33,910 nt of DNA from a virus. The DNA lies in the IMG/VR virus record IMGVR_UViG_3300018074_000013, positions 1-33,910 of that record, one strand, 5' to 3'. Positions 428 through 24,275 of this stretch are shown here, piece by piece. The notes beneath the pieces are model-generated. The model was given only the letters and a program-made list of their open reading frames with translations, was not told the origin of the DNA and made no database searches. Numbering within the stretch: position 1 is the first letter of the stretch; the number at the start of each line of letters is the position of its first letter. The position numbers and the translations under genes were made by a program.

Positions 428-1171
428 ATGCCTATAGCAGCTACCGACCTGATCGCTTACGAGGCGCTCAATAGGCCAGATGACGATGTGACCCTGACGG
501 GTGGTGGGATCGATATTGATCACCGCACGGTTTTCACCCAGATGACTGCTAACTCGAATCTTGAGGTTGTAAGCTCTAACGCAGGCGACACGACCCAGAG
601 TTTCACTGTCAAGGGCCGGAATGCGGCTGGCGTGATCGTGACTGGCACAGGGACCCTTAACGGGACGACTGCGGTCGCGGTTCCGAATGGTCCCTACGAG
701 AGGATACTCAGATTCTTTATCGGTGCCGATGCGACTGGGACCGTGACGCTCCGGAACACGGCGGCCGGTACGACCTGGGGGACGGTCCCGCCGGCGGAAC
801 GTGGCTTTCACAGCGCATTTTATGATTCGGCCAGCGAGGCCGCGATCGCGATCCGCTTCCACAAGGTCCATTGGAGAAATTCGCACGCAACTCTTACGGG
901 AACCAACGCGAAGGTGAGACTCTCTGCTGATCCAGACGCTCGGATCCGTCAAGCCATAGAGACGGCAAAAGGTGATACGACCACGATCGCGAACCGGAAG
1001 ACTACCCCCGCGGGTGTTACGTTCGTGGATGACAACGTGGACCAGACCGTGCCGACTGGAAATCTCGCGGCAGGAGAGAATATCGGCGTCTGGTATGAGC
1101 AGAATCTTCCGGCGAGCGATACAGTTCATCGAACGACTTACACGAGCCAGCTAACCGTCACTACCGTCTGA
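428..1171 (+). CDS. Unknown virion-type protein, 247 aa
   Basis: ATG start behind a strong SD (AAGGAGGGAAGGAAC). The protein is rich in Thr, Ala, Gly and Val with alternating polar/hydrophobic stretches, no signal peptide and no membrane segment, which suggests an all-beta structural protein. A glycine/threonine-rich central part (about residues 55-120, with GTGTLNGTTAVAVPNGPYER) resembles jelly-roll or decoration proteins of phages in style only. The C-terminal third ends in IGVWYEQNLPASDTVHRTTY and a short Thr/Val tail. It overlaps the next gene by one base (TGATG), so the two are probably translationally coupled. Its place among other virion-like genes supports a capsid-surface or fibre role, but no family was recognised. 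Confidence 0.75.
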   Translation: MPIAATDLIAYEALNRPDDDVTLTGGGIDIDHRTVFTQMTANSNLEVVSSNAGDTTQSFTVKGRNAAGVIVTGTGTLNGTTAVAVPNGPYERILRFFIGADATGTVTLRNTAAGTTWGTVPPAERGFHSAFYDSASEAAIAIRFHKVHWRNSHATLTGTNAKVRLSADPDARIRQAIETAKGDTTTIANRKTTPAGVTFVDDNVDQTVPTGNLAAGENIGVWYEQNLPASDTVHRTTYTSQLTVTTV

Positions 1172-2307: not shown

Positions 2308-3129
2308 ATGGGTGACTGGCCGGCTACTCTTGGACATGGGAAGATTGTGCAATATGGGATAAGTCCCTCTAATTCTTTAGGTACCTCGACGACCAGCGGC
2401 ACGGCGAACGCCAAGAGTCCGTGGACGCAGCTCACGCCGTTGTCGAGTATCAGCGCCCACGGGTTCTTCCTCCAAATACTCTCCCAGGGTTTAAACGACA
2501 ACTTAGTCGATGTTGGGATCGGCGAGAGCGGCGCGGTTAAGGTCATCGTCTCTAATGTCCTTTATACTTGTGGCAGCATCGCCGACCAGCTCTTCTTCTA
2601 TGCCCCTGTCTCTATAGCGGCTAATAGTAAGGTATGGGCGCGCCACCAGAGTACCGGGAGCTCGGGGGATACCATCTACGTGAGCGCGCTCCTGTGCGCC
2701 CATGGGTTTCTTGGGCTGCGTCCGGTGTCTAAGTTCGTGACCTTTGGTGCCATGACGAGCGACAGCGGAGGAACTGAGGTGGACCCGGGTGGGACCGCGA
2801 ACACGAAGGGAGCCTGGACCGAAATCGTCGCCTCTATTGCGATTAAGGTCCGCATGCTCTATGTCGCTATCGGGAACCGCGATCTCGCCACCAGGGCCAC
2901 AATGAGCTTGTTCATTGATATTGGGATCGGGGCCTCGGGAGCCGAGAAGGTGCTCATGTCAAACCTCTATTGTTTGTCCGAGGACGGAGGTGACACGTGG
3001 ACGCCACAGATGTTCGGCCCATTCTTCACGCAGGTCCCATCTGGAACCAGGCTGTCTGCCAGGGCCCAGTGCAGCTCCGCCACCATCAACGAGCGGCTAT
3101 TCGATGTGGTCTTGTACGGAGCTCCGTAG
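2308..3129 (+). CDS. Duplicated-domain virion-type protein A, 273 aa
   Basis: ATG one base after the upstream stop. The protein has two copies of a beta-rich domain of about 130 residues. Each copy has GTAN.K..WT near its start, a D[VI]GIG.SGA.KV centre (residues about 68 and 203) and a Y.P or FGPFF...P...R..AR late segment, so the gene arose by internal duplication. It starts MGDWP, as does its neighbour at 3133, and the two are tandem paralogs. No signal peptide or membrane segment. The domain style suggests a virion surface or fibre-like protein; no family name can be given. Weak SD, so translation is probably coupled to the upstream gene. Confidence 0.8.
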   Translation: MGDWPATLGHGKIVQYGISPSNSLGTSTTSGTANAKSPWTQLTPLSSISAHGFFLQILSQGLNDNLVDVGIGESGAVKVIVSNVLYTCGSIADQLFFYAPVSIAANSKVWARHQSTGSSGDTIYVSALLCAHGFLGLRPVSKFVTFGAMTSDSGGTEVDPGGTANTKGAWTEIVASIAIKVRMLYVAIGNRDLATRATMSLFIDIGIGASGAEKVLMSNLYCLSEDGGDTWTPQMFGPFFTQVPSGTRLSARAQCSSATINERLFDVVLYGAP

Positions 3130-3132
3130 GTC

Positions 3133-3960
3133 ATGGGCGATTGGCCTATCGCGATTGGTACGAGCGAGCTGCTGGATCAGGGTTTAAATACTGCGAGTAC
3201 CACCCTGACCTCTGTGACCAGCAGTGCCACGCCGAACGCCATGGGCTCCTGGACCCAGATCGTCGCGTCCTCGCCGATCGACGCCCAGATGGTCCACGTC
3301 ATGCTGTCGGTCGACGACTCTACCCGGGATAGTCTCATGGATCTCGGGATCGGGGCGGTCGGGGCCGAGAAGATCGTTTTTCCCAAGATGCTCCTCACTA
3401 ATTCCAATAACGATCGTATGGCGTGGTCTTTCCTGATGCCTGTCCCTGTTAAGGCCGGGATCCGGATAGTCGCCAGGGTACAGACCTCGTCCATATCTCT
3501 AGTAAGGAGGATCGGCCTCCACTTAATGGGTAGGAGCTTTCTTGGGTTCAGCGCCATGGGTCGCGTCCTCGCATGGGGAGCTGACATATTGACGAGCAGC
3601 GGGACCCTGGTCGATCCCGGTACCGTCGCGAATACCTTCGGCGCCTGGTCCGAGCTAGTCTCTTCTACGATTAACAAAGTGAGGGCGCTTTACGTCATGG
3701 TCGGGAATAATAATCTCTCGGTTCGCGGGACGTGCGCGGCGCACCTTCAGATAGGAATAGGGGCGGCAGGATCGGAAAAGGTGCTGATCCCGCAGATGCA
3801 GCTTAGGAGTCAGACTGCGACTGATCTCTGGACCCCGCGCGTCTTCGGACCGTTTTTCGCACAGGTCCCTGCGGGCGTCCGGATCTCGGCCAAGGCCCAG
3901 TGCAGTATCACGACCGCCACTGAGCGTCTGATACCTGTGGTAGTATACGGAGTGGATTGA
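3133..3960 (+). CDS. Duplicated-domain virion-type protein B, 275 aa
   Basis: Tandem paralog of the preceding gene, separated from it by three bases. It shares the MGDWP start, two copies of the same domain (D[LI]GIGA.G.EK[IV] at about residues 74 and 205), F[LM].PVPVKAGIR or FGPFFAQVPAGVR strands, and a common C-terminus (KAQCS...ERL...V[VL]YG). With its neighbour this gives four copies of the domain in 1.65 kb. Identity between the genes is clear but far from complete, so the duplication is old. Function unknown; most likely a virion structural protein, perhaps forming hetero-oligomers with its paralog. Confidence 0.8.
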   Translation: MGDWPIAIGTSELLDQGLNTASTTLTSVTSSATPNAMGSWTQIVASSPIDAQMVHVMLSVDDSTRDSLMDLGIGAVGAEKIVFPKMLLTNSNNDRMAWSFLMPVPVKAGIRIVARVQTSSISLVRRIGLHLMGRSFLGFSAMGRVLAWGADILTSSGTLVDPGTVANTFGAWSELVSSTINKVRALYVMVGNNNLSVRGTCAAHLQIGIGAAGSEKVLIPQMQLRSQTATDLWTPRVFGPFFAQVPAGVRISAKAQCSITTATERLIPVVVYGVD

Positions 3961-3964
3961 AGCT

Positions 3965-4306
3965 ATGCCAAGCCTAGAAGCGAGCGGAACCCAGGCGGCC
4001 ACGGTAGGCGTCGAGCATCTCCTAGCTACGGTGACGAGTAACAAGACCCTCGTCTTCATGGTCGACGCTAATGCAATGACGAACGGTAACTCGACGGACG
4101 CCGCAGATGAACTGGAGCTTAAGATCGAGACTTCGGTCTTATCTGCCGGAGCGTCGAGAGTCGCGTACCTTGCATCGTTCTTCGGGGCCCAAGCGGAACC
4201 GATCCTGATATCGGTCCCAGTACCCTCCGACATACAGTCGATCTTCAGGCTGAAGCAGACGGCCGGCGTGGATAGATCCTTCCCGTGGAAAGTACTGGGA
4301 TTGTGA
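3965..4306 (+). CDS. Unknown virion-type protein, 113 aa
   Basis: ATG four bases after the preceding stop. The short beta-rich protein opens with MPSLEASGTQAATVGVEHLL and has a regular pattern of strands (KTLVFMVDANAM, ELELKIETSVLSAG, PILISVPVPSDIQSIFRLKQ). It contains no cysteine, no signal peptide and no membrane segment. Small beta-sandwich proteins of this size occur beside phage fibre genes as adaptors or decoration proteins, but no specific family is recognised. The next gene begins two bases after its TGA. Confidence 0.75.
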   Translation: MPSLEASGTQAATVGVEHLLATVTSNKTLVFMVDANAMTNGNSTDAADELELKIETSVLSAGASRVAYLASFFGAQAEPILISVPVPSDIQSIFRLKQTAGVDRSFPWKVLGL

Positions 4307-4307
4307 C

Positions 4308-5891
4308 GTGTCCGTCGCCCTCAGACACACAGCGGAGTACATTCCGCTCTTTAAGTGGCTTCTCCATGATTCCGTTCCGCCGTTCGCTGGATTCGAGTCG
4401 TCCCCGGCAGAGAACGGATGGGCGATGCATGATTCCGTCCCTCCGTTCCAGAGTTTTGAGCCGGCCCCCGCGGCCGACACCTGGATACTTCACGATTCGA
4501 TCCCACCGTTCCGGGATTTTATTCCGGAGATCCCCGTCACTCGCTTTCTCGTCCACCCGTGGGAGGCCCTACGAGGTATTCTGCGCGACAGGACTCAACC
4601 CTGGGAGTCTTTTGGCACACAGAGTCAGGTCGCTGAACAGTTCTGGGAGGCGATGGCGAGAATCCAGAAGACCGATCAGCAGTTCTGGGAATCGCTCCTC
4701 GGTGTGCGCCCGACCGCGGCTCAGCCTTGGGAGGCGCTTTCCGGAATCCGCCCGACCGCGGCTCAGCCTTGGGAGGCGCTTTCCGGAATCCGCCCGACCG
4801 CGGCTCAGCCTTGGGAGGCGCTTTCCGGAATCCGCCCGACCGCGGCTCAGCCTTGGGAGGCGATGGCGAGAATCCAGAAGACCGATCAGCAGTTCTGGGA
4901 ATCGCTCCTCGGCCTTCGACCAGTTGCGGTTCAGCCCTGGGAGGCCTTGTCGTCTATTGCGAGTGGAGTGTCTCAGCCATGGGAAGCTATGGCTCTCATC
5001 TCGAGAGCGGCCGTGCAGCCCTGGGAGGCTATGGCACTCATCGCACGCATCGCGATGCAGCCGTGGGAGAGCCTACTAGGCCTCGCGCGGACGGCGGCGC
5101 AGCCGTGGGAATCGCTTCAGGGTATACGGCCAATTGTCTCACAGCCCTGGGAGGCGATGGCCATCATCACTCCTCTCGCAGCCCAGCCATGGGCCTCCGG
5201 GAGGACTCAACAGGCATCGGCCGGTCAGCCATGGGAGAGCCTGGTCCAGCTCGCTCGAATGGCCGCACAACCCTGGGAATCGCTAGCGACCGCGCTCCGG
5301 ATCGCTGGACAGCCCTGGGAAGCACTCCTCGGTCTTCGCCCTCTCGCCCAGCAGCCGTGGGAGGCTGGCGGTACACAGCAGAACGCGGCGATTCAGTCCT
5401 GGGAGGCGATGGCCCTACGTCAGGTCTCCGCCGGGCAGACGTGGGAGTCCATCCGGAGCGTGCTCCGAACCGCGGGCCAGTCATGGGAGAGCCTTGTTGC
5501 CCTGACCCGGACCCAGAATCAGTTCTGGGAATCTCTGATAGGTCTATCGGCGTTTGCCCAGCAGCCATGGGCATCCACCGGGGTGATTGTGGTCACGGCT
5601 GCTCAGCCGTGGGAATCGAGGGTTCTTCTGGTCGTCTCAACGGCCCAGCCCTGGGAGGCTCTGGTTGGCATATCTCGTCAGGCCGCCCAGCCCTGGGAGG
5701 CGAGGAGCATGAGGACCGCTTTCGCCATTCAGCCTTGGGAGGGTATAATCAAGCTTGTATTTGATGGTACCGTGGTCAATATTTGGTTCGTTCCTATTGG
5801 TGGAGCGGGCTGGCAGATACCTTCAGGTGGTAACATCTGGACCGTACAGGATGACGAGGATCTCTGGACTGTACCGAAGGGGGAGGAGTAG
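4308..5891 (+). CDS. Trp-Glu tandem repeat protein, 527 aa
   Basis: GTG start one base after the upstream stop. Residues 20-82 are three 21-residue repeats, each starting HDS[VI]PPF. Residues 83-488 are 29 consecutive, gap-free 14-residue repeats with consensus QPWE[AS][LM]xGIRxxAx. The Trp is present in every copy, and Glu in all but two. The C-terminus (490-527) has further Trp motifs (IWFVP, GWQIP, IWTVQ, LWTVP). There is no signal peptide and no cysteine in the array. Lengths of 14 and 21 are multiples of seven, so an amphipathic helical or solenoid rod with a Trp stripe is possible. It may be a virion fibre or spacer protein, like its neighbours, and the following gene resembles a fibre adaptor. 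No family recognised; function inferred from context only. Confidence 0.85.
   Translation: MSVALRHTAEYIPLFKWLLHDSVPPFAGFESSPAENGWAMHDSVPPFQSFEPAPAADTWILHDSIPPFRDFIPEIPVTRFLVHPWEALRGILRDRTQPWESFGTQSQVAEQFWEAMARIQKTDQQFWESLLGVRPTAAQPWEALSGIRPTAAQPWEALSGIRPTAAQPWEALSGIRPTAAQPWEAMARIQKTDQQFWESLLGLRPVAVQPWEALSSIASGVSQPWEAMALISRAAVQPWEAMALIARIAMQPWESLLGLARTAAQPWESLQGIRPIVSQPWEAMAIITPLAAQPWASGRTQQASAGQPWESLVQLARMAAQPWESLATALRIAGQPWEALLGLRPLAQQPWEAGGTQQNAAIQSWEAMALRQVSAGQTWESIRSVLRTAGQSWESLVALTRTQNQFWESLIGLSAFAQQPWASTGVIVVTAAQPWESRVLLVVSTAQPWEALVGISRQAAQPWEARSMRTAFAIQPWEGIIKLVFDGTVVNIWFVPIGGAGWQIPSGGNIWTVQDDEDLWTVPKGEE
4365..5771 (+). repeat. In-frame 63-bp and 42-bp coding repeat array
   Basis: Three 63-bp units (4365-4553) are followed without a gap by 29 units of 42 bp (4554-5771). 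All are in frame and encode the HDSxPPF and QPWE repeats. Because 42 is a multiple of three, the other two frames stay open too, giving a long spurious overlapping frame at 4727-5764. Most units have diverged at synonymous sites, so the array is old apart from a recent homogenised core. Confidence 0.9.
4707..4863 (+). repeat. Near-identical 42-bp tandem repeats
   Basis: About 3.7 copies of one 42-bp unit (units starting near 4708, 4750, 4792 and 4834; core GGCTCAGCCTTGGGAGGCG) are identical at the DNA level. A separate 59-bp stretch at 4644-4702 recurs exactly at 4854-4912, a distance of 210 bp or five units. This indicates recent slippage or unequal recombination within the gene, so copy number may vary between related phages. 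It is also a place where short-read assembly could miscount. Confidence 0.85.
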
Positions 5892-5894
5892 CCA

Positions 5895-6200
5895 ATGGCG
5901 GGCGTGAAGACGGCCCCGGAGGTACTACTAAAGACGGTCGACGAAGTGGTGCTCGCGGACTTCGACTTCGCGGCCAACATGGCCTCGACCGAGACGATAT
6001 CGACATTTGTTTCTCTGACGATTACCCCATCGGGCGCCGGCCACTTGGTAAAGGACGCGCACGTGATCAGCGGGCAGAAGGTACAGCTCAGGCTCTCCGC
6101 CGGGATCCTAAACACAAGCTACTCTCTCGACCTGAAGGTGACTACTTCTTTACTGCAAACACTTGAGGGATGCGGATTTATGAAGGTGAAGGCATGTTGA
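5895..6200 (+). CDS. Fibre-tail adaptor-like protein, 101 aa
   Basis: ATG with a strong SD (GGGGGAGGAG) six bases upstream. The sequence reads as a small immunoglobulin-like beta domain: an N-terminal charged strand (VDEVVLADFDF), TISTFVSLTITPSGAG, ISGQKVQLRLSAG and SYSLDLKVTTSLLQTLEG. This order (polar strand, 'SGxKVQxRLSxG', 'YxLxxxVTTSxxQxLEG') matches the pattern of small phage proteins often annotated as fibre-tail adaptors or Ig-like virion domains. It follows the Trp-Glu repeat protein directly, which fits an adaptor for that protein. The family call is from memory and moderate in confidence. Confidence 0.6.
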   Translation: MAGVKTAPEVLLKTVDEVVLADFDFAANMASTETISTFVSLTITPSGAGHLVKDAHVISGQKVQLRLSAGILNTSYSLDLKVTTSLLQTLEGCGFMKVKAC

Positions 6201-6277
6201 TAGATCCTCTGACAGGGGACGATGAAGACGACGATGATGATCTTGATCCTTTCGTCGCTGCTCGGCGGCTGCGCTAG
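6194..6277 (+). CDS. Possible 27-aa acidic micro-ORF
   Basis: ATG overlapping the previous stop (GCATGTTGA), with a GAAGGTGAAGG SD-like run before it. It encodes 27 residues with a DDEDDDDD run and a basic end (AARRLR), stopping at TAG 6275-6277. It overlaps the start of the lipoprotein gene in another frame, and much of the acidic run comes from the GATGATGAT stretch of that gene's start. It may be a coupling leader rather than a functional protein, or simply chance. Confidence 0.25.
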   Translation: MLIDPLTGDDEDDDDDLDPFVAARRLR

Positions 6278-6539
6278 GTTCTCCCGGGTGGAGGCGCTCA
6301 AACTCCCCGGAGAGGAGTGGAGGATCTATTCGGTCGCAGGCGTGCGACTCGGGGAGACCTCACATCTGGACCTGGGGGTCGGGCATCGGCTCGACCTTGG
6401 GTCCCTCGAGGACACTCCGATCGCGCAGGCTGCGTTCCGGATCGCCGGAGAAGGCGGCGGATCGATCTCGGGCCGGGTGGATTACGCCCCGGAAATTGGC
6501 GAGGTGACCGGATCGATCGGAGTGGAGGTGGAATGGTGA
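6222..6539 (+). CDS. Small phage lipoprotein, 105 aa
   Basis: ATG behind CAGGGGACG. The N-terminus is a textbook lipoprotein signal: basic MKTT, a hydrophobic core (MMILILSS) and a lipobox LLGGC with the modified cysteine at residue 17. The mature part (about 89 aa) begins CARFSRVEALKLPGEEWRIY and is beta-rich, with alternating charged and Gly residues (LDLGVGHRLDLGS, GGGSISGRVDY). This suggests export and anchoring to a bacterial membrane. Possible roles are an outer-membrane spanin partner, superinfection exclusion or host-surface modification; none can be chosen from sequence. Seven-base overlap with the next gene. Confidence 0.75.
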   Translation: MKTTMMILILSSLLGGCARFSRVEALKLPGEEWRIYSVAGVRLGETSHLDLGVGHRLDLGSLEDTPIAQAAFRIAGEGGGSISGRVDYAPEIGEVTGSIGVEVEW

Positions 6540-6769: not shown

Positions 6770-7023
6770 GAGAGAGTAAAATCAAGGAGTTCCGGCGCCT
6801 CCTGCGGGCCGTCGGTCTAAGCACCCTCTCACACCGCGTCTGGAAGCGTCTGCTCCGGCTCTATCGGGAGACGCCAGCGGGTGAGAAGGCCGAGTTCGTT
6901 ATTCTTTTGCCACAGATGGTCTCGAGGGCCAGCGATCAAGCTTTAACCGCCGCGTGGGGCCGCATGAACGACGAGCAGCGGGCCAAGGCCCCGGCGGCCG
7001 TACGCGGGAGGTTTGAGTCATGA
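6766..7023 (+). CDS. Small basic helical protein upstream of terL, 85 aa
   Basis: ATG at 6766 follows CCCGGAGGAGCT, a clear SD, and overlaps the upstream TGA. The protein is basic and helical (KIKEFRRLLRAVGLSTLSHRVWKRLLRLYRET), with a C-terminal part ALTAAWGRMNDEQRAKAPAAV. It sits directly before the large terminase with a four-base overlap, where many phages carry the small terminase subunit or a packaging cofactor. A DNA-binding role would fit, but no small-terminase motif was recognised and a better candidate for that role is at 1-408. Confidence 0.7.
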   Translation: MRESKIKEFRRLLRAVGLSTLSHRVWKRLLRLYRETPAGEKAEFVILLPQMVSRASDQALTAAWGRMNDEQRAKAPAAVRGRFES

Positions 7024-8552
7024 GCGGCTGCGACTGCGGGGCGGAGATGGTGAAGGATTCGACCCACGCCGACTGGTGTTCGCGCTTGGAATGGCAGGAT
7101 ACCGACGCTGGGCCGCGTCCAATCTATGAAGGGAAAAATGTCGTCTGGGCACCGCAACCCAGAGGACAGCAGCTCTTCCTCGAGTGCCCGATCTTCGAGG
7201 CCCTTGCCGAAGGGAACAGGGGCGGGGGCAAGACCGAGGCTCTCCTCATGGACTTTTGCCAGCACGTGGGCGCGGGATACGGGAGCGAGCACCGCGGGAT
7301 CGTGATCCGCAGAACCTATGTCCAACTGGCCGACTTCGTGATCAAGACCAAGAAATGGATACCGGCAATCTGGCCTTACGCGTGCTTCAACGAGGCGAAG
7401 ATGCAGTGGGCGTGGCCGACCGGCGAGACCCTGCGCCTGGCATACTTAGATCGAGAGGAGGACTTCCAGGGCTATCTTGGAGCGGCGTTCACATGGATTG
7501 GCTTCGAGGAGCTCACGACGTGGCCCGACGACAAGTGCTACCGGCTCATGATGTCTTGCATCCGATCAGCGGTGCGGGGGATACCGCTGAAGATTCGGGC
7601 CACCACTAATCCCTACGGCCCCGGCCACAACTGGGTCAAGACGCGGTTCGCCTTACCGATAGCTTTTGGCCAACGCATCGGGAGGATCGTTCGGGAGGAG
7701 GGCGAGCAGGCACGGGTCGCAATTCATTGCCCGAGGGAGGAGAATCGGATCCTCACCACGGCGGATCCCTCATACGATTCCCGGATCCGGGAGGCGGCGT
7801 CGAATCCGGCTCAGAGGAAAGCATGGGAGGAGGGATCCTGGGATGTTGTAGCTGGCGGGATGTTCGATGGCGATTGGCATCCGGAATATCATATGATCCC
7901 GGACGTGACGGCTAAGCAGATACCAGCGGAATGGCTGGTCAGCTTGTCGTATGATCATGGGATGACAAAACCCTGGTCGCTCGGTGTGTGGGCTGAGTCC
8001 AACGGGGAGCCGATCGAGGCGGAGGGCCGAAAGATTGGAACCGTCAAGGGGGATCTGATCCGAATCTACGAGCTCTATGGATGGACCGGCGTTCCCAATG
8101 AGGGTTTACGGATGCTGACGGTTGAGATCGCTGCCAGGATCAGGGATAAGCTGAAGGAATGGGACCTTTGGCGTCGGATCAGGTGGCCGGGGATAGCCGA
8201 CTCTTCGATCTTCGATAATATCTACGAGCCCGGCAAATCGGTGGCCGGAGACCACGCCAGGATGGGTGTGCAGTGGGCACCGGCCGATAAGGGACCTGGA
8301 TCGCGGATCCAGGGCTGGCAGCAGATGCGGAACATGCTGTGTGGCGCTCTGCCGGGCCCCCAGGGGATCCGCGAACGTCGCGGCCTGTTCGCTTGTCGCA
8401 GATGTGAGCAGTACAGGCGCACTTTGCCCGTACTTCCGAGGGACCCGAAGACCCCGGATGACGTGGACACGAATTCCGAGGACCACGTCGCAGATGAGGT
8501 CCGGTATAGGATCCGCGAGAAGGATCGCAGAATAGCTTTCAGGGACTTCTAA
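7020..8552 (+). CDS. terL: Terminase large subunit
   Basis: ATP-driven DNA packaging motor and headful or cos nuclease, acting at the portal vertex. Visible: Walker A GNRGGGKT at residues 65-72; a Walker B-like segment FTWIGFEE at 157-164; coupling motif ATTN at 194-197; RNase H-like nuclease acidic residues in YDHG (D312), GIADSS (D394) and EDHVADEVRY (D488, D492). Length 510 aa is normal. The N-terminus adds a likely zinc knuckle (C4, C6, H17, C20), and a CRRC pair occurs near 459-462, both unusual additions. The ATG overlaps the upstream stop. The gene is followed after 16 bases by the portal gene. Confidence 0.95.
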   Translation: MSGCDCGAEMVKDSTHADWCSRLEWQDTDAGPRPIYEGKNVVWAPQPRGQQLFLECPIFEALAEGNRGGGKTEALLMDFCQHVGAGYGSEHRGIVIRRTYVQLADFVIKTKKWIPAIWPYACFNEAKMQWAWPTGETLRLAYLDREEDFQGYLGAAFTWIGFEELTTWPDDKCYRLMMSCIRSAVRGIPLKIRATTNPYGPGHNWVKTRFALPIAFGQRIGRIVREEGEQARVAIHCPREENRILTTADPSYDSRIREAASNPAQRKAWEEGSWDVVAGGMFDGDWHPEYHMIPDVTAKQIPAEWLVSLSYDHGMTKPWSLGVWAESNGEPIEAEGRKIGTVKGDLIRIYELYGWTGVPNEGLRMLTVEIAARIRDKLKEWDLWRRIRWPGIADSSIFDNIYEPGKSVAGDHARMGVQWAPADKGPGSRIQGWQQMRNMLCGALPGPQGIRERRGLFACRRCEQYRRTLPVLPRDPKTPDDVDTNSEDHVADEVRYRIREKDRRIAFRDF

Positions 8553-8568
8553 GAAAGGGACTTCTAAG
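8542..8568 (+). repeat. 12-bp direct repeat at the terL/portal junction
   Basis: GGGACTTCTAAG occurs at 8542-8553 and again at 8557-8568, separated by AAA. The first copy encodes the last codons and stop of the terminase (GAC TTC TAA); the second lies just before the portal ATG, where AAAGGG acts as its SD. It looks like a small tandem duplication that created or moved the ribosome binding site. Confidence 0.7.
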
Positions 8569-9990
8569 ATGTTGACTCCTGATTCCCCGTCGGCTGCTTG
8601 GCATTCCATGATCCGAACATGGGATAAGATAGATGCTGTATTGTCCGGCACAGAGGCGATCCGCCTGAAGGGGGAGACGTATCTACCTCGCTACGAGAGC
8701 GAGAAAGAAACTAATTATCGGAATAGGCTGATTCGGGCCGTCCTGACGAACGTATCCTCCCAGACCCTGGAGTCCTGGGTTGGACGCCCGTTTTCGGATC
8801 CGATTGTCATGACGGACATCCCCGAGGTGCTCTCGGGTGTGCTCGAGGATGTGGACCTCCAGGGGAATGCCGTCGGCGTCTTCGCCAGGAAGTGGTTCCG
8901 GGAGGGGCTCGGCAAAGCCTTGGCCCACGTCTTAGTGGACTTCCCGGCGATCTCCATAGAGGGGGAACGGCAGAGGACTTTGGCCGACGACTTACGAGAG
9001 GGGCGCAGGCCCTTTTGGTCGTTTATCAAGCCCGAGAATCTGATCTTCGCGGCGTCCATAGTGCGGAATGGCAAAGAGATCCTCACACACGTCCGCATCC
9101 GGGAAGGCGAGAGCGCCCGCGATGAATGGGGAGAGAAATATCTGCGACGTGTCAGGACGTTCGACCATGATCCAGATACCGGCATCACGGAATTCTCCGT
9201 CTATGAGCCGGGCGAGAAGCAGGAAGAATGGAGACGGATCGTTGGCCCATCCAGGATCGACCTGGATCGGATACCGCTTGTGACCTTCTACGCCGATCGA
9301 GTCGGGCTCATGACGGGTAAGCCTCCGATCGAGGATCTCGTGGATCTGAACGTATCCCACTGGCAGCACTCATCGGATCAGGATAATATCCTGATAGTCG
9401 CTCGGTTCCCCCTCTTGTGTGCCAGCGGCGTCTCACAGGAGCAGGTTGACCACGTGGTTCTTTCGCCGAGGAAGATCCTGTCCACGCCAACGGAGGGCGG
9501 GCGGTGGTACTTCACGGAGCACTCCGGGGCCGCGATCGCTGCTGGTCGAGAGCACATCCGAGACCTGGAGGAGAGGATGTCTCACTACGGGGCGGAGTTC
9601 CTTCGTCGCCGGCCCGGGACGGAAACGGCCACCGCCCGGGCGTTGGATTCGGCGGAGGCTACGTCGCCGCTCCAGGACGCAGCCGTCAGGTTCAATGATG
9701 TCCTGGCCCAGGCCCTGTGGCTCACGGCTAGGTGGATGGGGATCGAGGAGCCGGGGAAGATCGAAATCACGACGGACATGGGACCCGAGACGACCCAGGC
9801 ATCCGATCTCCAGACCTTGACCACAGCCCGACAGATGCGGGAGATCAGCCGAGAAACCTATCTGGAGGAACTTAAGCGCCGGGGCCTCTTGGCAGACGAC
9901 TTCGACCCTGAGGAGGATCGGGCAAAGGTGGAGGCCGAGATGATGACCGGTCGAGCGGAGACAATGATCGATGGACAGGCGGAAGTGTAG
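8569..9990 (+). CDS. Portal protein (DUF4055-like)
   Basis: Dodecameric ring protein at the head-tail vertex through which DNA enters. The 473-aa protein has the pattern of the SPP1 gp6-like/DUF4055 portal family: an N-terminal W..I....SGTEAIRLKGETYLPRYESE....Y..R motif, then SQTLESWVGRPFSDP, a middle beta region (LIFAASIVRNGKEILTHVRI), a conserved PLV.FYADR...PPIEDL.DLN..HWQ..SDQ segment, and a C-terminal GAEFL.RRPGTETATARALDSAE helix. Position between terL and MuF is canonical. SD AAAGGG nine bases before the ATG. The 3' end overlaps the next gene by 20 bases. Confidence 0.9.
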   Translation: MLTPDSPSAAWHSMIRTWDKIDAVLSGTEAIRLKGETYLPRYESEKETNYRNRLIRAVLTNVSSQTLESWVGRPFSDPIVMTDIPEVLSGVLEDVDLQGNAVGVFARKWFREGLGKALAHVLVDFPAISIEGERQRTLADDLREGRRPFWSFIKPENLIFAASIVRNGKEILTHVRIREGESARDEWGEKYLRRVRTFDHDPDTGITEFSVYEPGEKQEEWRRIVGPSRIDLDRIPLVTFYADRVGLMTGKPPIEDLVDLNVSHWQHSSDQDNILIVARFPLLCASGVSQEQVDHVVLSPRKILSTPTEGGRWYFTEHSGAAIAAGREHIRDLEERMSHYGAEFLRRRPGTETATARALDSAEATSPLQDAAVRFNDVLAQALWLTARWMGIEEPGKIEITTDMGPETTQASDLQTLTTARQMREISRETYLEELKRRGLLADDFDPEEDRAKVEAEMMTGRAETMIDGQAEV

Positions 9991-10186
9991 AAGGTGCGGA
10001 ACACGCGTCCCGGAGGGCAGGGACATATGCCCCAATACTGCTTGCATGAGCTTTCTTCCGAGCGACGTGGTGCGAGACATGGCGTGCCCGCTCTGCGGCG
10101 GGGAAGTTTTATATATCGGCGTGACTCCGCCGGCGCTAGAGTGTAATTCGTCGTGGTGCACGAATTTTAGGATGGTACTGAGATGA
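9971..10186 (+). CDS. Double zinc-ribbon small protein, 71 aa
   Basis: Begins inside the portal 3' end. Eight cysteines fall into two zinc-ribbon-like units: C6-xx-C9 with C20 and C25, and C39-xx-C42 with C58 and C63. Such tiny zinc-ribbon proteins are often found in phage packaging operons but their role is not established. Basic N-terminus (MDRRKCRRCGTR). It overlaps the following gene by four bases (ATGA), consistent with coupled translation. Confidence 0.75.
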   Translation: MDRRKCRRCGTRVPEGRDICPNTACMSFLPSDVVRDMACPLCGGEVLYIGVTPPALECNSSWCTNFRMVLR

Positions 10187-10428
10187 ACCTACCGCCGCTG
10201 ATCCAGGAACCCCTCGTGAGCGTGGATTGCACGCCGGACCATGAGTATCCGATCCGGATCCTGCGCGCGCATCGGGCAAACTGCAATTGCCGATGGAAGA
10301 CGAGCGGCCTGTCGGCGGAGCAGACGAGGTTCTATGAACTGATGAATCACGTCTGCGAGCTCAGGGCGCAGATCCTGGATGACGCGATCAGGAAATTAGA
10401 ATTGGCGCCCGCCGGCCCGCTCATCTGA
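10183..10428 (+). CDS. Unknown small protein, 81 aa
   Basis: ATG overlaps the preceding stop. The N-terminal half has a CNC motif and a late cysteine (HRANCNCRWKTSGLS; HVCELRAQ), plus DCTPDHE near residue 15, so a metal site is possible but not certain. The C-terminal half is one helix (EQTRFYELMNHVCELRAQIL). No family recognised. It is followed by a 70-base gap containing GGTAGCGGAGAATACC, which could form only a short hairpin, and an AT-rich stretch before the next SD. Confidence 0.7.
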   Translation: MNLPPLIQEPLVSVDCTPDHEYPIRILRAHRANCNCRWKTSGLSAEQTRFYELMNHVCELRAQILDDAIRKLELAPAGPLI

Positions 10429-10498
10429 TGATGCTGAGGCCTGAGATAAGGTAGCGGAGAATACCGGCGGCGCCTTTTATTTATAGAAAGGGAGAACA

Positions 10499-10735
10499 AT
10501 GAATCTGAGCGATGAGAGACTCGATGAGATTCTTTTGAAATTGATCCGAGGAGAGCACCCGGATCATAAGGACCTGGAACGAATCATCCTTGAGTTGAAA
10601 TGTCAGCGATCGAGGACATGGATGTGGTTGTTGCAGCCTCAGCCTTTGCAGCCTTACTATATTTACCCGAACCCGAACCAGCCACCATCGGTATTACCCA
10701 TCTACTGCGAGACTGGCGGCCTTGGCGACTGCTAA
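10499..10735 (+). CDS. Unknown small protein with Pro/Tyr-rich tail, 78 aa
   Basis: ATG behind AGAAAGGGAGAACA, a good SD. Residues 1-40 form an acidic/basic helical region (MNLSDERLDEILLKLIRGEH). Residues 41-70 switch to a Pro/Gln/Tyr/Trp-rich stretch (LLQPQPLQPYYIYPNPNQPP), ending near a cysteine. The stop overlaps the TTG start of the MuF gene. Another frame (10600-10773) is open across the second half, so the exact C-terminus is less certain than the start. No function recognised. Confidence 0.6.
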   Translation: MNLSDERLDEILLKLIRGEHPDHKDLERIILELKCQRSRTWMWLLQPQPLQPYYIYPNPNQPPSVLPIYCETGGLGDC

Positions 10736-12791
10736 CGAGAAGCTCCTCCGGGTCTCCCTCCGTCACCAGGTAGATGTCCGCAGGTTCGCGGCCGGTGAGG
10801 TACGGGCGATCTTGCGCCTCCTTGAGGGGGCGGATCGGGAGTTGGTCGAAAAGCTTCGGGTGCGCCTCGCCCGCCTCGGGGCAGTGACTGACTTCACCAG
10901 CCGGCGATATCGGGCCGTGCTTGAGGAGATCAGGGAACTGCGCCGTACGGTCGTGGACGCGGTGCGGCGCCGGACTGCGGGGAAGCTCGAGGCGCTCGCG
11001 GCCCAAGAAATCCGGGCCGAGGGCAGGGCCATCAAGGCATCCATCCCGATCCGCGTCGAGTTGGCCCGCCTCCCGATTCAATCGGCCGCGGCCATCGCTA
11101 CCGAGCGCCCGTTCCAAGGGAAGCTCCTCGGGGAATGGTTCTCCGAACTCCGGGCAACTGACCAGCGGAACCTCGTCCAAGAGATCCAGCTCGGGTTGGC
11201 ACAGGGGGAAGGGGTACAGCAGATCGTTCGCCGGGTGGCTGGGACCCGCGCCAATGGGTTCCAGGACGGAGTCCTGGCGATCACCAGGAGGAATGCGGAG
11301 GCGGTGGTGCGGACCGCGGTGAACCACGTCTCAAATGCGGCCCGAGAAGCGGTCTGGGAGGGCAACGAGGATATCGTATCGGCCCTCCGGTGGACGGCCA
11401 CCCTTGATGGCCGGACATCTGCGATCTGTCGGTCCCGAGACGGGGCGCTCGTGATGCTGGACGATCGGCCACTGCCGGAGGGAGAGCGAGCACTGGAGCC
11501 AAATGGGGCGCGGCCTCCTGCCCACGTAAATTGTTTACTTGGCGATAGTTATGTATTGCCCTGTGGCGGGATCACGGCCGCTATGAAACGGTTTTATGCA
11601 GGAGAGATTGTGGTCATCCGCACGGCGTCGAAACACGAACTGACCTGCACCCCAAATCACCCGATACTCACAGATCGAGGATGGGTCGCAGCGAAGCTCC
11701 TGGATCGCAGCGACCGCGTAATCTGCTACCTTGGGAGTAAGGATCCATTTAGCGGTGTCGAACACGAACACCAGGATGGACCATCTCGAATCGAGAATGT
11801 AGCGCGTCCGCTTCTCGAAGGTCCGGGTATGAATTTGGTCTCGACTTCTGGATGCGACTTCCACGGCGATGCGATCGATGGCGAAGTCTGTATTATAGGG
11901 ACCAAAAGCCTTCTGAAACGTGTCGAAGCAGAGCCCGCGCTCCAGCATCATATCGTTAAACAATCTCTCGAGAGTAGAGGATCGAGAGTCCATCTTTCCC
12001 TCCCTGGTTCTGGCACTAAGGCATTTCTCCTGGAGAGACCTCGTTCGTCCTCTAGACGCAATATGGGCGGCCGAAATCTGGGCCGCCCTATCCTCCGGTG
12101 TTCTTCTATCCCAGATTCCCTGATTAGCCTCACAGCCTCGTCTTCTCTTCTCGGGATCTCTCCATGCCAGGCGACGAGCCTCTCCGGCACTTCGTCTCGA
12201 TATTCCTCGTTCCTTGAGAATTCGATAGAGGACGATGTCCGAGAATTCGCGATTTCGGCAGATGTCATGGACTCCCTCTCCGGACACGTATCGTGTGACG
12301 AGATCGTCGATATCGAACGGCGTGATTTTTCGGGCCACGTGTTTAACCTCCAAACCGGTTCCGGAATTTATTTTGCCACATTCGGTAACATAATAACACA
12401 TAACTGCCGATCCGTCATGGTCTCCGTGATCGATGGTGAGGCCCTGGTGGGTAACCGGCCCTTCGTCAGCGATGCCCGCCGGCCAGACGAGCGTCTGGCT
12501 GACTTCCGGGCCGAGGCTAGGCGCACCGGACGCCCGATCGGGGAGATCCGCGAGGAATGGGCCGATGAGAACATTGGGAGCGTGCCGGCCAAGATCACTT
12601 ACGGGGAGTGGCTCGGGGACCAGTCAGCAGCGTTCCAAGACGAGGTCCTGGGTCCAACCCGCGGAGCACTATTCCGTCGCGGCGGGCTGGAGATCCATGA
12701 GTTTACTGATCGGAGGGGAAATGAACTGACCCTCGAGGAGCTGGAGGCCCGGCACGGCGATGCCTTTGAAGAAGCGAACTTAGGGGATTGA
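10722..12791 (+). CDS. MuF-like head morphogenesis protein interrupted by an intein
   Basis: SPP1 gp7/Mu gpF-like minor head protein that binds the portal. TTG start at 10722 gives the usual N-terminus (ATANEKLLRVSLRHQVDVRR); no ATG is available upstream in frame. Extein residues 1-270 are helical, then the MuF core WTATLDGRTSAICRSRDG (224-241) and PPAHVN (265-270). The conserved H-x-N-C-R-S motif is split: after N270 comes a 291-aa intein (271-561), and C562-R-S continues the extein to residue 689. After splicing the protein would be 398 aa, normal for the family. The intein tract is more AT-rich than the exteins. Confidence 0.9.
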   Translation: MATANEKLLRVSLRHQVDVRRFAAGEVRAILRLLEGADRELVEKLRVRLARLGAVTDFTSRRYRAVLEEIRELRRTVVDAVRRRTAGKLEALAAQEIRAEGRAIKASIPIRVELARLPIQSAAAIATERPFQGKLLGEWFSELRATDQRNLVQEIQLGLAQGEGVQQIVRRVAGTRANGFQDGVLAITRRNAEAVVRTAVNHVSNAAREAVWEGNEDIVSALRWTATLDGRTSAICRSRDGALVMLDDRPLPEGERALEPNGARPPAHVNCLLGDSYVLPCGGITAAMKRFYAGEIVVIRTASKHELTCTPNHPILTDRGWVAAKLLDRSDRVICYLGSKDPFSGVEHEHQDGPSRIENVARPLLEGPGMNLVSTSGCDFHGDAIDGEVCIIGTKSLLKRVEAEPALQHHIVKQSLESRGSRVHLSLPGSGTKAFLLERPRSSSRRNMGGRNLGRPILRCSSIPDSLISLTASSSLLGISPCQATSLSGTSSRYSSFLENSIEDDVREFAISADVMDSLSGHVSCDEIVDIERRDFSGHVFNLQTGSGIYFATFGNIITHNCRSVMVSVIDGEALVGNRPFVSDARRPDERLADFRAEARRTGRPIGEIREEWADENIGSVPAKITYGEWLGDQSAAFQDEVLGPTRGALFRRGGLEIHEFTDRRGNELTLEELEARHGDAFEEANLGD
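11532..12404 (+). mobile_element. Intein in MuF, 291 aa, with nested antisense endonuclease gene
   Basis: Self-splicing protein element. It begins with Cys (block A CLLGDSYVLP), has block B TCTPNHPILTDRGW with TxxH at intein residues 40-43, a block F-like segment DFSGHVFNLQTGSGIYF, and ends in block G NIITHN followed by extein Cys: a class 1 Cys1/Asn-Cys+1 design. Only about 68 N-terminal and 37 C-terminal residues look like splicing domain. The 185 residues between have no LAGLIDADG or HNH motif and are Ser/Arg/Leu-rich filler. The opposite strand carries an endonuclease gene over almost the whole element. Insertion is at the catalytically or structurally conserved HVN/CRS motif, as is typical for inteins. 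Confidence 0.9.
11535..12338 (-). CDS. Antisense Vsr-like (EDxHD/PD-(D/E)XK) homing endonuclease inside the intein
   Basis: 267 codons from GTG (complement of 12336-12338) to TAA, the complement of intein codon 2. GGAGG (complement of 12347-12351) lies eight bases before the GTG. An upstream in-frame ATG, the complement of the intein's penultimate His codon, gives 288 aa but has no SD. Domains: N-terminal HTH (about 9-55, DDLVTRYVSGEG...ILKERGISRRS), basic linker, then a nuclease core: E124 (STLERLF), QKAFGPYNTDFAID with D151, IAVEV with E160, H170, RTRYILDSRWSILVF, and a C-terminal EYRVIWG. This matches the layout of phage homing endonucleases related to Vsr/I-Bth0305I. The usual 'GG.WH' after VEV is not seen, so activity is uncertain. 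It would cut intein-free MuF alleles. Confidence 0.8.
   Translation of the reverse strand: MARKITPFDIDDLVTRYVSGEGVHDICRNREFSDIVLYRILKERGISRRSAGEARRLAWRDPEKRRRGCEANQGIWDRRTPEDRAAQISAAHIASRGRTRSLQEKCLSARTREGKMDSRSSTLERLFNDMMLERGLCFDTFQKAFGPYNTDFAIDRIAVEVASRSRDQIHTRTFEKRTRYILDSRWSILVFVFDTAKWILTPKVADYAVAAIQELRCDPSSICEYRVIWGAGQFVFRRRADDHNLSCIKPFHSGRDPATGQYITIAK
12347..12418 (-). promoter_or_regulatory. Candidate minus-strand promoter and SD for the antisense endonuclease
   Basis: Read on the minus strand: -35-like ATGACG (complement of 12413-12418), a 17-base spacer, -10-like TATTAT (complement of 12390-12395), then about 40 bases to GGAGG (complement of 12347-12351) and the GTG. The -10 matches five of six sigma-70 consensus bases and the -35 four of six. 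The -35 lies in the C-extein and the -10 in the codons of block G (NIIT), so the element spans the junction. The SD uses the codons of block F (FNL). Pattern match only. Confidence 0.45.
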
Positions 12792-15799: not shown

Positions 15800-16618
15800 A
15801 TGGCTTACTTTTTCGTGGAGCTCCCTACTGGATCTCTCAATGCGACCCGGTTCGACGGCGTCGGTACATATCTCGTTGAGGCAGCCAATGCCACCGAGGC
15901 GAAAAATATGTGTCGAGCTGAGCATTCCGGTGATTTCGGGTGGGAGGACGCTACGGCTACGCAGATCACGGGCGCTTTCGCGGCTGATCTGCTCGGTTGG
16001 GAATACCGCGTACGGGTCAGTCTCGCATCAGGTGGGGAGCCCGATCTGGTCGATGTGAGTGGAAAGGTGGCTGCTGGGCAGATCGGCGTCACCTCCATCA
16101 CCCTCGGGGCTGGAGGTACTGGCTACACCGTCAACGATGTGCTCACCGTCTCGGGCGGGACGTTCACCGCCTCGGCCCGGCTGAAGGCGACGACCGTAGC
16201 GGCTGGCGCCGTGACCGCGGCCGTTGTGATTGATCCAGGGCTCTATACGACCCTGCCGACGAATCCTGCTGCCGTCACCGGCGGGACCGGGACTGGGGCG
16301 ACCTTTAACCTCACTGGTACATCGAGTCTGAACAACGTCGTGATGTGCGGCGTCCTGACGAAGAAGTTGCAGGATACGGCGCCAATCGCCGGTGCGACCT
16401 TCGAGCCGGCGAGCAATCTGCTGACTGTGGCGGCTGCTAGTGACAACCTGGGCGATCGGACGCTGCGGGTGGAGACGTTTCCCCCAGGCGCTAAGGAACT
16501 GATGCCGTCGAGCCCGCTGGTGGGTACAATCGTCCACCAGGGCGCGGTTGGCGCGGCCTTGACGGTCGTCCTTCCGCTCCCAACCCCGATCCCAGTTGTC
16601 ATTCGGAGATTAAAATAA
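15800..16618 (+). CDS. Capsid decoration-like protein carrying a GGTGYTV module, 272 aa
   Basis: ATG with CATAGGAGAAATCG upstream. The N-terminal 90 residues start MAYFFVELPTGSLNATRFDG and contain VEAANATEAKNMCRAEHSGD, probably a small alpha/beta domain. Residues about 102-172 are a Gly/Thr/Ala-rich beta module ([19 protein letters not shown]...[12 protein letters not shown]) also found in the tail tube and tail-tip proteins. The C-terminal 100 residues include a DRTLRVETFPPG segment and a hydrophobic LTVVLPLPTPIPVVIRR end. Position directly after the capsid gene suggests a head decoration or capsid-stabilising protein; family not recognised. Confidence 0.7.
   Translation: MAYFFVELPTGSLNATRFDGVGTYLVEAANATEAKNMCRAEHSGDFGWEDATATQITGAFAADLLGWEYRVRVSLASGGEPDLVDVSGKVAAGQIGVTSITLGAGGTGYTVNDVLTVSGGTFTASARLKATTVAAGAVTAAVVIDPGLYTTLPTNPAAVTGGTGTGATFNLTGTSSLNNVVMCGVLTKKLQDTAPIAGATFEPASNLLTVAAASDNLGDRTLRVETFPPGAKELMPSSPLVGTIVHQGAVGAALTVVLPLPTPIPVVIRRLK
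16103..16315 (+). repeat. GGTGYTV coding module, copy 1
   Basis: About 71 codons. Landmarks: [31 protein letters not shown], a short variable strand with Y, PTNPAA and [12 protein letters not shown]. Homologous to the modules in the tail tube (19337-19552) and the tail-tip protein (three copies from 24416). Related at protein level and partly at DNA level (GGCGGGACCGG). Confidence 0.85.
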
Positions 16619-18184: not shown

Positions 18185-19981
18185 ATGGTCGCTGTTCTTA
18201 AGATCGACAGTAACGTCGTGGGTCTCCGCATCGCGGAGGAGACGAGCCTGAAGGTCCTTCCGGGGACTCCAATCTGGGATCCGTTCGAGCCGAACTCCTT
18301 CGCCGACTTCGGCGGGGAGATCACGACAGTCGCCAGAAATCCCATTAACCCGGGGCGTCAGCGCAAGAAGGGCGTGACGACCGACCTCGACGCGAGCGGC
18401 GGGTTCAATACGGATCTGACACAGACGAACCTCCAGAAGCACCTCCAGGGGTTCTTCTTCGCGGACCTGCGGATCAAGACCGACCTGGACGTGGCGATCG
18501 TGGACACCGGCGATACCGGCGACGACTATGAGCCGGCGTCCGGCGGGACCGGCTTCCGGGTGAACGACCTGCTCTTTGCCTCGGGGTTCGCCGTCTCGCA
18601 GAATAACGGCCTGAAGGTAGTGACCGGCACCGTGACCGCGACGAGCGTCCCGGTGATCACGCCCCTAACCCCAGCTACCGGGCAGACCGGCAAGATCACT
18701 CGGGTCGGGCATCAGTTCGCCACGGGCGACGCCCGGATCGATACGTCCGGAGCCCTCCCGAAGTTGGTCACGACCACCAAGGATCTGACCCAGCTCGGGG
18801 TGATCCCGGGCGAGTACCTCTTCGTCGGCGGGGACGCGACCGCCGAACAGTTCGCCACGGTCGGGAACAATGGCTTCGCTCGGGTGCGCTCAGTCGCCAC
18901 GAACGCGATCGAATTCGATAAAACGGCCGGCAATATGGCGACCGACCTTGGGACTGGCAAGACCATCCGGGTCTTCCACGGGGCCAGGGTCCTCAAGAAT
19001 GAGACCGGTACCCTGATCAAGCGGCGCACGTATCAGCTCGAGCGGACCCTCGGGGCGCCGGACGACGCGCTTCCGACCCAGGTCCAGAGTGAGTACGTCG
19101 TGGGAGCCGTTACGAATGAGCTGACACTGAACATCCCGGTGGCCGACAAAGTAACGCTGGACCTGACCTACGTCGGGCTGGACGTGGAGCAGAGGACCGG
19201 CGCGACTGGCGTGAAGTCCGGCACCAGGCCGGCCCTCATCGAGGCCGACGCGTTCAACACGAGTTCTGACTTCTCCAGGATCAAGCTGGCCCGATTCGGG
19301 GCCAGCACGACGAATCGGGAGGCGCTCACGGCGACGGTGGGTGCCGGCGGTACGGGATATACCGTGAACGACATTCTAACGATCGTCGGCGGGACCTTCG
19401 CGGTCGCGGCCAAGTTCAAGGTGACGACCGTGAGCGCCGGCGCGGTGACCGCCGTCGTGGTGGACACCCGCGGTAGCTACACGATCACGCCGTCGAACCC
19501 GGCGGCCACGACCGGCGGGACCGGCACCGGGGCGACTCTGAACGTGACTTACGCGTTCATCGACACGTGGGCCAATCCGACTCCGCTCTTCGCGTTCGCC
19601 AGCGACCTGAGCCTGACCGTGAACAACAATGCGGACCCCCTGAAGGCGGTCGGTGTCCTGGGGGCCTTCGAGGTGGGCGTGGGGACCTTCGAGGTCGGCG
19701 GGTCGATGACCGTCTTCCTCGCCGACATCCCGGCGATCCAGGCCGTGAGGGACAACAGCGATGTGACGCTCGACGTGCACCTCGTGAAGTCCAATGCCGG
19801 GATCTCGGTCGACGTGCCTCTTCTGACCCTCGGCGACGGGAGGCCGGATGTTGCTCAAGATGAGCCTATCACGCTGCCCCTAACGATCAATGCGTCCACC
19901 GGGGCGAAGATCAGCACGAGTCTGGACCATACGCTTTTGATCTGCTTCTATGATTTTCTCCCAAGTGCTGCTGACGTGTAA
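18185..19981 (+). CDS. Tail tube protein with inserted GGTGYTV module, 598 aa
   Basis: ATG with ACGGAGGAGTAAAT upstream, a strong SD. The N-terminus has the tail tube pattern: [20 protein letters not shown], then [40 protein letters not shown] and [10 protein letters not shown]. At 598 aa it is far longer than a usual major tail protein because of extra domains. Residues 385-456 carry one full GGTGYTV module, and residues about 115-134 hold a degenerate one ([17 protein letters not shown]). The C-terminal part ([22 protein letters not shown]) returns to a tail-tube-like beta domain. Extra domains probably decorate the outside of the tail. Confidence 0.82.
19337..19552 (+). repeat. GGTGYTV coding module, copy 2
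   Basis: About 72 codons inside the tail tube gene: [55 protein letters not shown]. Clearly the same module as at 16103-16315. A shortened relative lies near 18527-18590. Confidence 0.85.
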
Positions 19982-23934: not shown

Positions 23935-24275
23935 CCCAACCCACGCCCTACCGCGCTTCGCCTGCCGAGCCGTGCCGGGCCGTGCCCAGCCGTGCCCAGC
24001 CACACCTGCCAAGCCGCGCCGTGCCTTACCAAGCCGCGCCCAGCCTTACCATGCCGAGCCATGCCGATCCACGCCTGCCATGCCTTGCCGGACCACGCCA
24101 AGCCGCGCAATGCCTTGCCAAACCGTGCCATGCCTCGCCTGCCATGCCTTGCCGGATCGTGCCGTGCCCTGCCGTGCCGCGCCCTGCCGAGCCGAGCCCT
24201 GCCTGCCATGCCTTACCGAGCCAAGCCAAGCCAAGCCACATGCCGAGCCGAGCCGCGCCACGCATACAATGTTCT
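23935..24275 (+). repeat. Non-coding GCCNN pentanucleotide array with 64-bp higher-order period
   Basis: This 395-base gene-free stretch between the tape measure and tail-tip genes is almost entirely GCCNN units (GCCGA, GCCGT, GCCAA, GCCAT, GCCTT and so on), with rare 4-base GCCT units that shift the phase. The block GCCTGCCATGCCTT recurs at 24073, 24137 and 24201, exactly 64 bases apart. Plus strand is C-rich, minus strand G-rich. All three plus frames are open, but the 5-base period makes any translation a rotating low-complexity string with no SD, so it is treated as non-coding. Function unknown. Confidence 0.85.

Follow-up and report, generated by a model that had tools for sequence, protein, structure and literature searches.

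We found, in a 33,910-nt stretch of phage DNA (IMG/VR record IMGVR_UViG_3300018074_000013, here called the window), a gene encoding 29 tandem 14-residue units that belongs to a wider family of phage arrays, is maintained by selection, and is linked in many phages to a gene for a conserved partner protein of ~250 aa. The array protein is probably a free-standing, non-enzymatic structural virion component, most likely of tail-fibre type and of recombination-adjustable length, which would be joined by a Gp77-family protein and work together with the partner. Arrays within tail proteins are of a known kind; the stand-alone array with its partner is a new variation on it.

Terminase, portal, scaffold, major head, tape measure and tail proteins were recognised in the window with PHROGs. 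Its portal is 48–50% identical to those of Bordetella phage CN2 and Pseudomonas phage PAE1, and by this measure the window reads as a siphophage fragment whose portal is of Mesyanzhinovviridae type. The array gene lies within a run of co-oriented small genes ahead of the terminase, upstream of TerL and outside the tail operon. The products of the tandem duplicate genes in this run (2308–3129 and 3133–3960) gave no family match.

Table 1. Features of the window around the array gene (L numbers are our labels for other records)
Feature	Position	Strand	Remarks
Partner gene	428..1171	+	247 aa, family A6; 56–58% identical to L067 and L091 partners
273-aa protein	2308..3129	+	41% identical to product of next gene
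275-aa protein	3133..3960	+	duplicate of 2308–3129 product
113-aa protein	3965..4306	+	directly upstream of array gene
Array gene	4308..5891	+	527 aa, GTG start
Three 21-residue units HDS[VI]PPFxxF	4365..4553	+	residues 20–82
29 gap-free 14-residue units	4554..5771	+	residues 83–488
Recent expansion within array	4707..4862	+	3.7 identical 42-nt copies (100%)
Four C-terminal 9-residue Trp units	5778..5885	+
Gp77-family protein	5895..6200	+	101 aa; Pfam PF23148 'fiber-tail adaptor', 46.2 bits, cut-off 27

The repeat layout described in the first-pass annotation was confirmed. Tryptophan falls at residues 85, 99 and so on to 477, each step exactly 14; the HDSxPPF starts are at residues 20, 41 and 62 (step 21), and one more such step leads to residue 83, the H that opens the first PWE unit, so the three longer units run into the 29 shorter ones without a gap (nt 4365–5771). 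Its consensus, QPWE[AS][LM]xGIRxxAx, fairly describes the majority of units, and the strictest positions are W (29/29), Q (28/29), A or S at +2 (28/29), E (27/29), P (22/29) and A at +10 (21/29). The Trp-rich VP motifs that it placed beyond the array are present, more exactly as four W at a step of 9 (residues 493, 502, 511 and 520), so that the common factor of seven it proposed holds for the 14- and 21-residue units but not for the C-terminal ones. A minority of units form a W[EA][AS]GGT-like subtype, which also occurs in the arrays of L067 and L031, and residues 421–445 are rich in valine. The same gene, with the same 29 units and zero base differences, is found in a twin contig, IMGVR_UViG_3300018031_000018 (L004). 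The twin extends upstream of the window start; there its positions 1–1400 hold an open frame containing a SAVD/SAVN-type repeat of four residues and, beyond it, a frame resembling a methyltransferase.

The array gene product is a real, selected protein. The longest in-phase run of W in 20,000 shuffles of the protein was 6, reached once, against the 29 observed. Agreement between units at codon positions 1, 2 and 3 is 0.546, 0.578 and 0.388, and identical residues are encoded by different codons in 1052 of 1941 between-unit comparisons; this codon-position pattern, together with the synonymous changes, indicates that the older units have been kept at the protein level. Units have also been duplicated recently, and the expansion at 4707–4862 is the sole fresh exact one of 42-nt units.

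IMG/VR was scanned for W-E, P-Y, P-Y-E and P-I-E-W patterns at a 42-nt step. Most matches were look-alikes, and clear arrays were found in L067, L031, L148, L169, L037, L091, L077/L083, L183 and L191–L193; BLASTP matches of the window array to several of these range from 1e-50 to 1e-13, values that are inflated by repetition. The window unit is one member of a broader family in which phi-E-[AS]-L-x-x-[LVI] recurs at a 14-residue step (phiESL), for which one profile (A3) was built from eight units and a second from four. The window has both the exact 14-residue step and a partner nearby on the same strand; the four-unit profile matched the twin's copy of the array, which had also supplied profile rows, at 4.7e-106 and at exactly this step. 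Unit statistics draw on 401 units in the 36 array ORFs that remained once six near-identical ones had been removed, and were counted in the 30 array ORFs having at least three units. Position phi is W in 28, Y in 23, I in 14, V in 11, F in 10 and H in 7 per cent; Ala or Ser stands at +2 in 76%, Leu at +3 in 64%, and Leu, Val or Ile at +6 in 71%, the frequencies for E, +2 and +3 not being independent results because the search required Glu at +1 and limited +2 and +3. The Trp/Glu stripes that had been suggested from the window therefore do not generalise: Trp is peculiar to this and some other arrays, and with so variable a phi position an aromatic sugar-binding stripe is not a common feature of the family. 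Loci L191–L193 carry PIEW-type arrays of 1000–1200 aa, adjoined by one to four copies of a phrog_2448-like gene of ~340 aa, while L084, L141 and L157 have 14-step aromatic arrays of other consensus, with 14, 17 and 13 in-phase residues.

No match to the array was found among 50,697 named phage records (direct tblastn, 1e-5) or, by sequence, in the PDB below E 0.4, and phrase-bound searches of a partial literature collection returned no paper describing this repeat by its title or abstract start. The view that this is not a described repeat family stands for Pfam, where nothing scored above cut-off (best OGG_N, 20.3 bits against 23, and TPR_5, 11.8 against 24.2), but must be qualified for PHROGs, since the 'tail protein' profile phrog_6079 matches the arrays of the window, L067, L037, L191 and L084. 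The match to L067 is at 4.3e-20 and that to the window array at 3.9e-12, over profile positions 59–171 of 605; it thus covers the Trp array region, ends short of the C-terminal tail domain, and may partly reflect the shared Trp step.

Comparison of neighbours brought out a protein of ~250 aa near the arrays of L067, L083, L091 and L148, and the same protein is encoded in the window, ~3.1 kb upstream of the array gene on the same strand. It is present in 12 of 19 array records, namely 12 of the 13 of phiESL type and none of the six with other 14-residue array types; the single phiESL record without a match, L192, is a 14-kb fragment. Rows of the partner profile came from five of the 13 phiESL records, and seven of the other eight matched it, one being a near duplicate of a row. 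The partner was absent from all 30 array-less records, an empty answer that is weak.

Linkage was also evident in reverse. Partner loci were sought without reference to arrays (n=49), and 38 of these had an array ORF, as did 28 of the 39 not seen before; there was none in 42 control loci, which were look-alike hits of the same scans, of varied length and not a matched sample, and none among reversed ORFs. With the four-unit profile 37 of the 49 matched, including L333, which the first profile had missed. Some of the weakest hits (E 1e-4 to 1e-6) may be false, and the independent loci are fewer than 49 because of the near duplicates L314/L315, L337/L338, L328/L330/L331, L334/L335 and L340/L341. 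Measured to stop-to-stop frames, array and partner are at most 150 nt apart in 18 of 38 cases and at most 3.1 kb apart in 36, and all 42 array ORFs are on the same strand as the partner. In L091 two adjacent array genes (6945–9220 and 10131–12203) occur with two partner genes, an apparent co-duplication. Contig IMGVR_UViG_2835558653_000001, which carries the pair, has an identifier in the style of an isolate. Partners of the window, L067, L083 and L148 gave no Pfam match above cut-off; at the thresholds used the partner matched none of the 50,697 named phage records and, by sequence, nothing in the PDB up to E 1, and its profile gave one partial match among 398 genomes from the same phylum as a Methylobacter genome.

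We infer a virion location and a fibre role from context. The Gp77-family gene begins 3 nt past the array gene (Pfam match E 6.9e-12); its solved relative is PDB 8jou_D (E 9.6e-6), and its putative function as a fiber-tail adaptor is taken from the Pfam name. Likeness to Gp77 of podophage GP4 (PF23148, PDB 8jou), whose paper is cited within the DEV preprint (PMC10925440, in excerpt), concerns this neighbour and not the array itself. In Burkholderia phage BcepMigl a Gp77-like gene adjoins genes annotated as tail fiber, and in L067 the tape measure gene comes first, then the array, then the partner and a Gp77 domain. The Gp77 gene directly downstream, the array position in L067 and the phrog_6079 match together support a fibre, and of the capsid fibre that the first-pass annotation had imagined the fibre fits this context, with a tail location fitting better than a capsid one. 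Several observations weaken a tail-fibre role: the window array is upstream of TerL and outside the tail operon, Pfam recognised no receptor-binding or tip domain in the array protein, and Gp77 scored above cut-off in only five of 19 array records (the window's twin among them) and one of 39 further partner records. None of the 30 array-less records had Gp77 above cut-off. Gp77 is not obligatory beside arrays.

A tail-fibre role also draws support from comparable 14-residue arrays fused to tail hubs, C-terminally in the Aeromonas Casjensviridae phages vB_C4 and AVP3 and N-terminally in Stenotrophomonas phage S1. In the N-terminal part of S1 gp21 Trp recurs at a step of 14, as in the window array, and a gpP-like tail domain comes after it; gp21 matches phrog_6079 over positions 2–604 (574 bits), whereas the window array matches only 59–171, and its units do not keep the E-[AS]-L core. 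The tail proteins of vB_C4 and AVP3 carry C-terminal 14-residue PY units, each starting with proline and an aromatic residue, again without E-[AS]-L. These arrays share a chain with a hub (phrog_1101, with PDB 8vjh and 8rk3 as relatives), whereas the window array is free-standing; 8VJH is from phage Chi, which according to PMC11945409 encodes no extended fibre for its distal tip. Between the L067 array and AVP3 there is a match at 1e-5. Neither S1 nor the two Aeromonas phages has a phiESL profile match or the partner, and for want of a profile match we call these arrays analogous or distant; the PY arrays, L084, L178 and S1 were accordingly set aside as members of the family. L009 (4079–8659) and L010 (4189–8574) encode Aeromonas Casjensviridae PY-array tail proteins, the repeats being absent from their annotation.

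If the array protein is a tail-fibre component, its 14-residue units would build an elongated body of adjustable length, with the 21-residue repeats and the 9-residue repeats forming its N- and C-terminal ends. The small Gp77-like protein would join it to the tail, and the conserved partner would act alongside it within one particle. Length would vary through unequal recombination between 42-nt units, while selection would keep the phi-E-[AS]-L core.

The fold of the units is unsettled, as AlphaFold2 gave a mean pLDDT of 37.3 for the whole protein from one sequence and of 41.6 (pTM 0.20) for eight units with 14 rows; these scores speak neither for nor against the stiff helical or solenoid rod suggested in the first-pass annotation. 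One possibility, which we hold tentatively, is a trimeric beta-structured shaft, with one strand-turn-strand per unit and the three chains wound round one another. The triple beta-spiral shafts form a class of animal-virus fibres. They resemble the array in being built of short tandem units, and a fibre role is what we propose for the array. Pro or Asn at the unit start (position −1) and GGT-type units would disfavour long helices; with the beta-looking sister arrays (L084 and the Aeromonas PY arrays, in which hydrophobic residues alternate) they lean to strands, and the valine-rich window residues 421–445 were modelled as strands at low confidence. However, the phiESL profile finds no match in these sister arrays, and the hydrophobic moment over the 30 arrays is helix-like, with its maximum of 0.556 at 103 degrees against 0.357 at 180. 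The best hydrophobicity repeat, 3.5 residues across the same arrays, likewise leans to helix. We give the same tentative standing to a solenoid of short helices, in which each unit would be one helix of two to three turns (P-phi-E-A-L-x-x-phi) plus a loop, stacked as a rod: hydrophobic positions 0, 3 and 6 and the helix-start-like P/N-phi-E suit it, and short helices are what the eight-unit model draws, as a further point against a beta shaft. The low scores of that very model, and the GGT-type units of the window, L067 and L031, speak against the solenoid.

A stiff fibre might not be needed at all, if the array were a multivalent docking scaffold on which each phi-E-[AS]-L unit binds one partner or partner oligomer. 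The partner is the best linked gene, L091 has two of each gene, and a chain that took up its fold only when bound to the partner would be consistent with low AlphaFold confidence; but the partner was found in none of the six records with other 14-residue array types, and linkage by itself does not prove contact. We consider such a scaffold rather unlikely, and it draws on the same linkage evidence as the tail-fibre role.

Array-bearing phages differ in their head genes: the window has portal phrog_145 and terminase phrog_2, L031 has terminase phrog_9, portal phrog_12 and major head phrog_10, and the L192 portal is phrog_156; contigs with partner loci range up to 174 kb. The array and partner pair thus behaves like an exchanged cassette, and its recurrence in many unrelated uncultured phages gives it the look of an undescribed swappable virion part. 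A bolder proposal, which we regard as speculative and unlikely, is that this two-gene virion cassette serves polyvalent display, the number of units setting how many partner copies are carried, so that recombination between 42-nt units would tune the valency of host attachment. If the tail-fibre reading is right, a fibre-type module found repeatedly in environmental phages, but at the thresholds used in none of the 50,697 named records, would gain a genetic definition; the 14-residue unit would join a short list of fibrous repeats, and unit number would be a simple handle on possible variation in phage attachment.

In extended form, 14 residues span roughly the length of one tail-tube ring. 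On this general geometry the array could be a ruler or strap along the tail with one unit per ring, and 29 units is near the ring count expected from the window's 705-aa tape measure, but L067 combines a longer tape measure (1106 aa) with a shorter array (26 units); as the two lengths run opposite in these two phages, we set this very improbable reading aside. Although artefact look-alikes are common (none of 68 GTDB loci that have W-E-[AS] four times in phase, sought as bacterial chromosomal relatives, looked by eye like a true array, and they were rejected as low-complexity frames), it is almost inconceivable that the window array is an unselected open frame across a DNA tandem repeat, which the codon-position and synonymous-change analysis refutes and the conserved neighbours and relatives contradict.

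Some further features of the window can be recorded. Between the Gp77-family gene and the terminase region, 6222–6539 encodes a small protein with a lipoprotein-like signal (LGGC). A GC-rich stretch at 23963–24212, flanked by the tape-measure gene and the gene at 24323, comprises 50.8 imperfect copies of a 5-bp unit (62% match) and is open in more than one frame. A phrog_9703/phrog_32129 domain is common to three virion genes (15800–16618, 18185–19981 and 24323–26089), the last of which has three stretches of it, as in a spread decoration-type domain.
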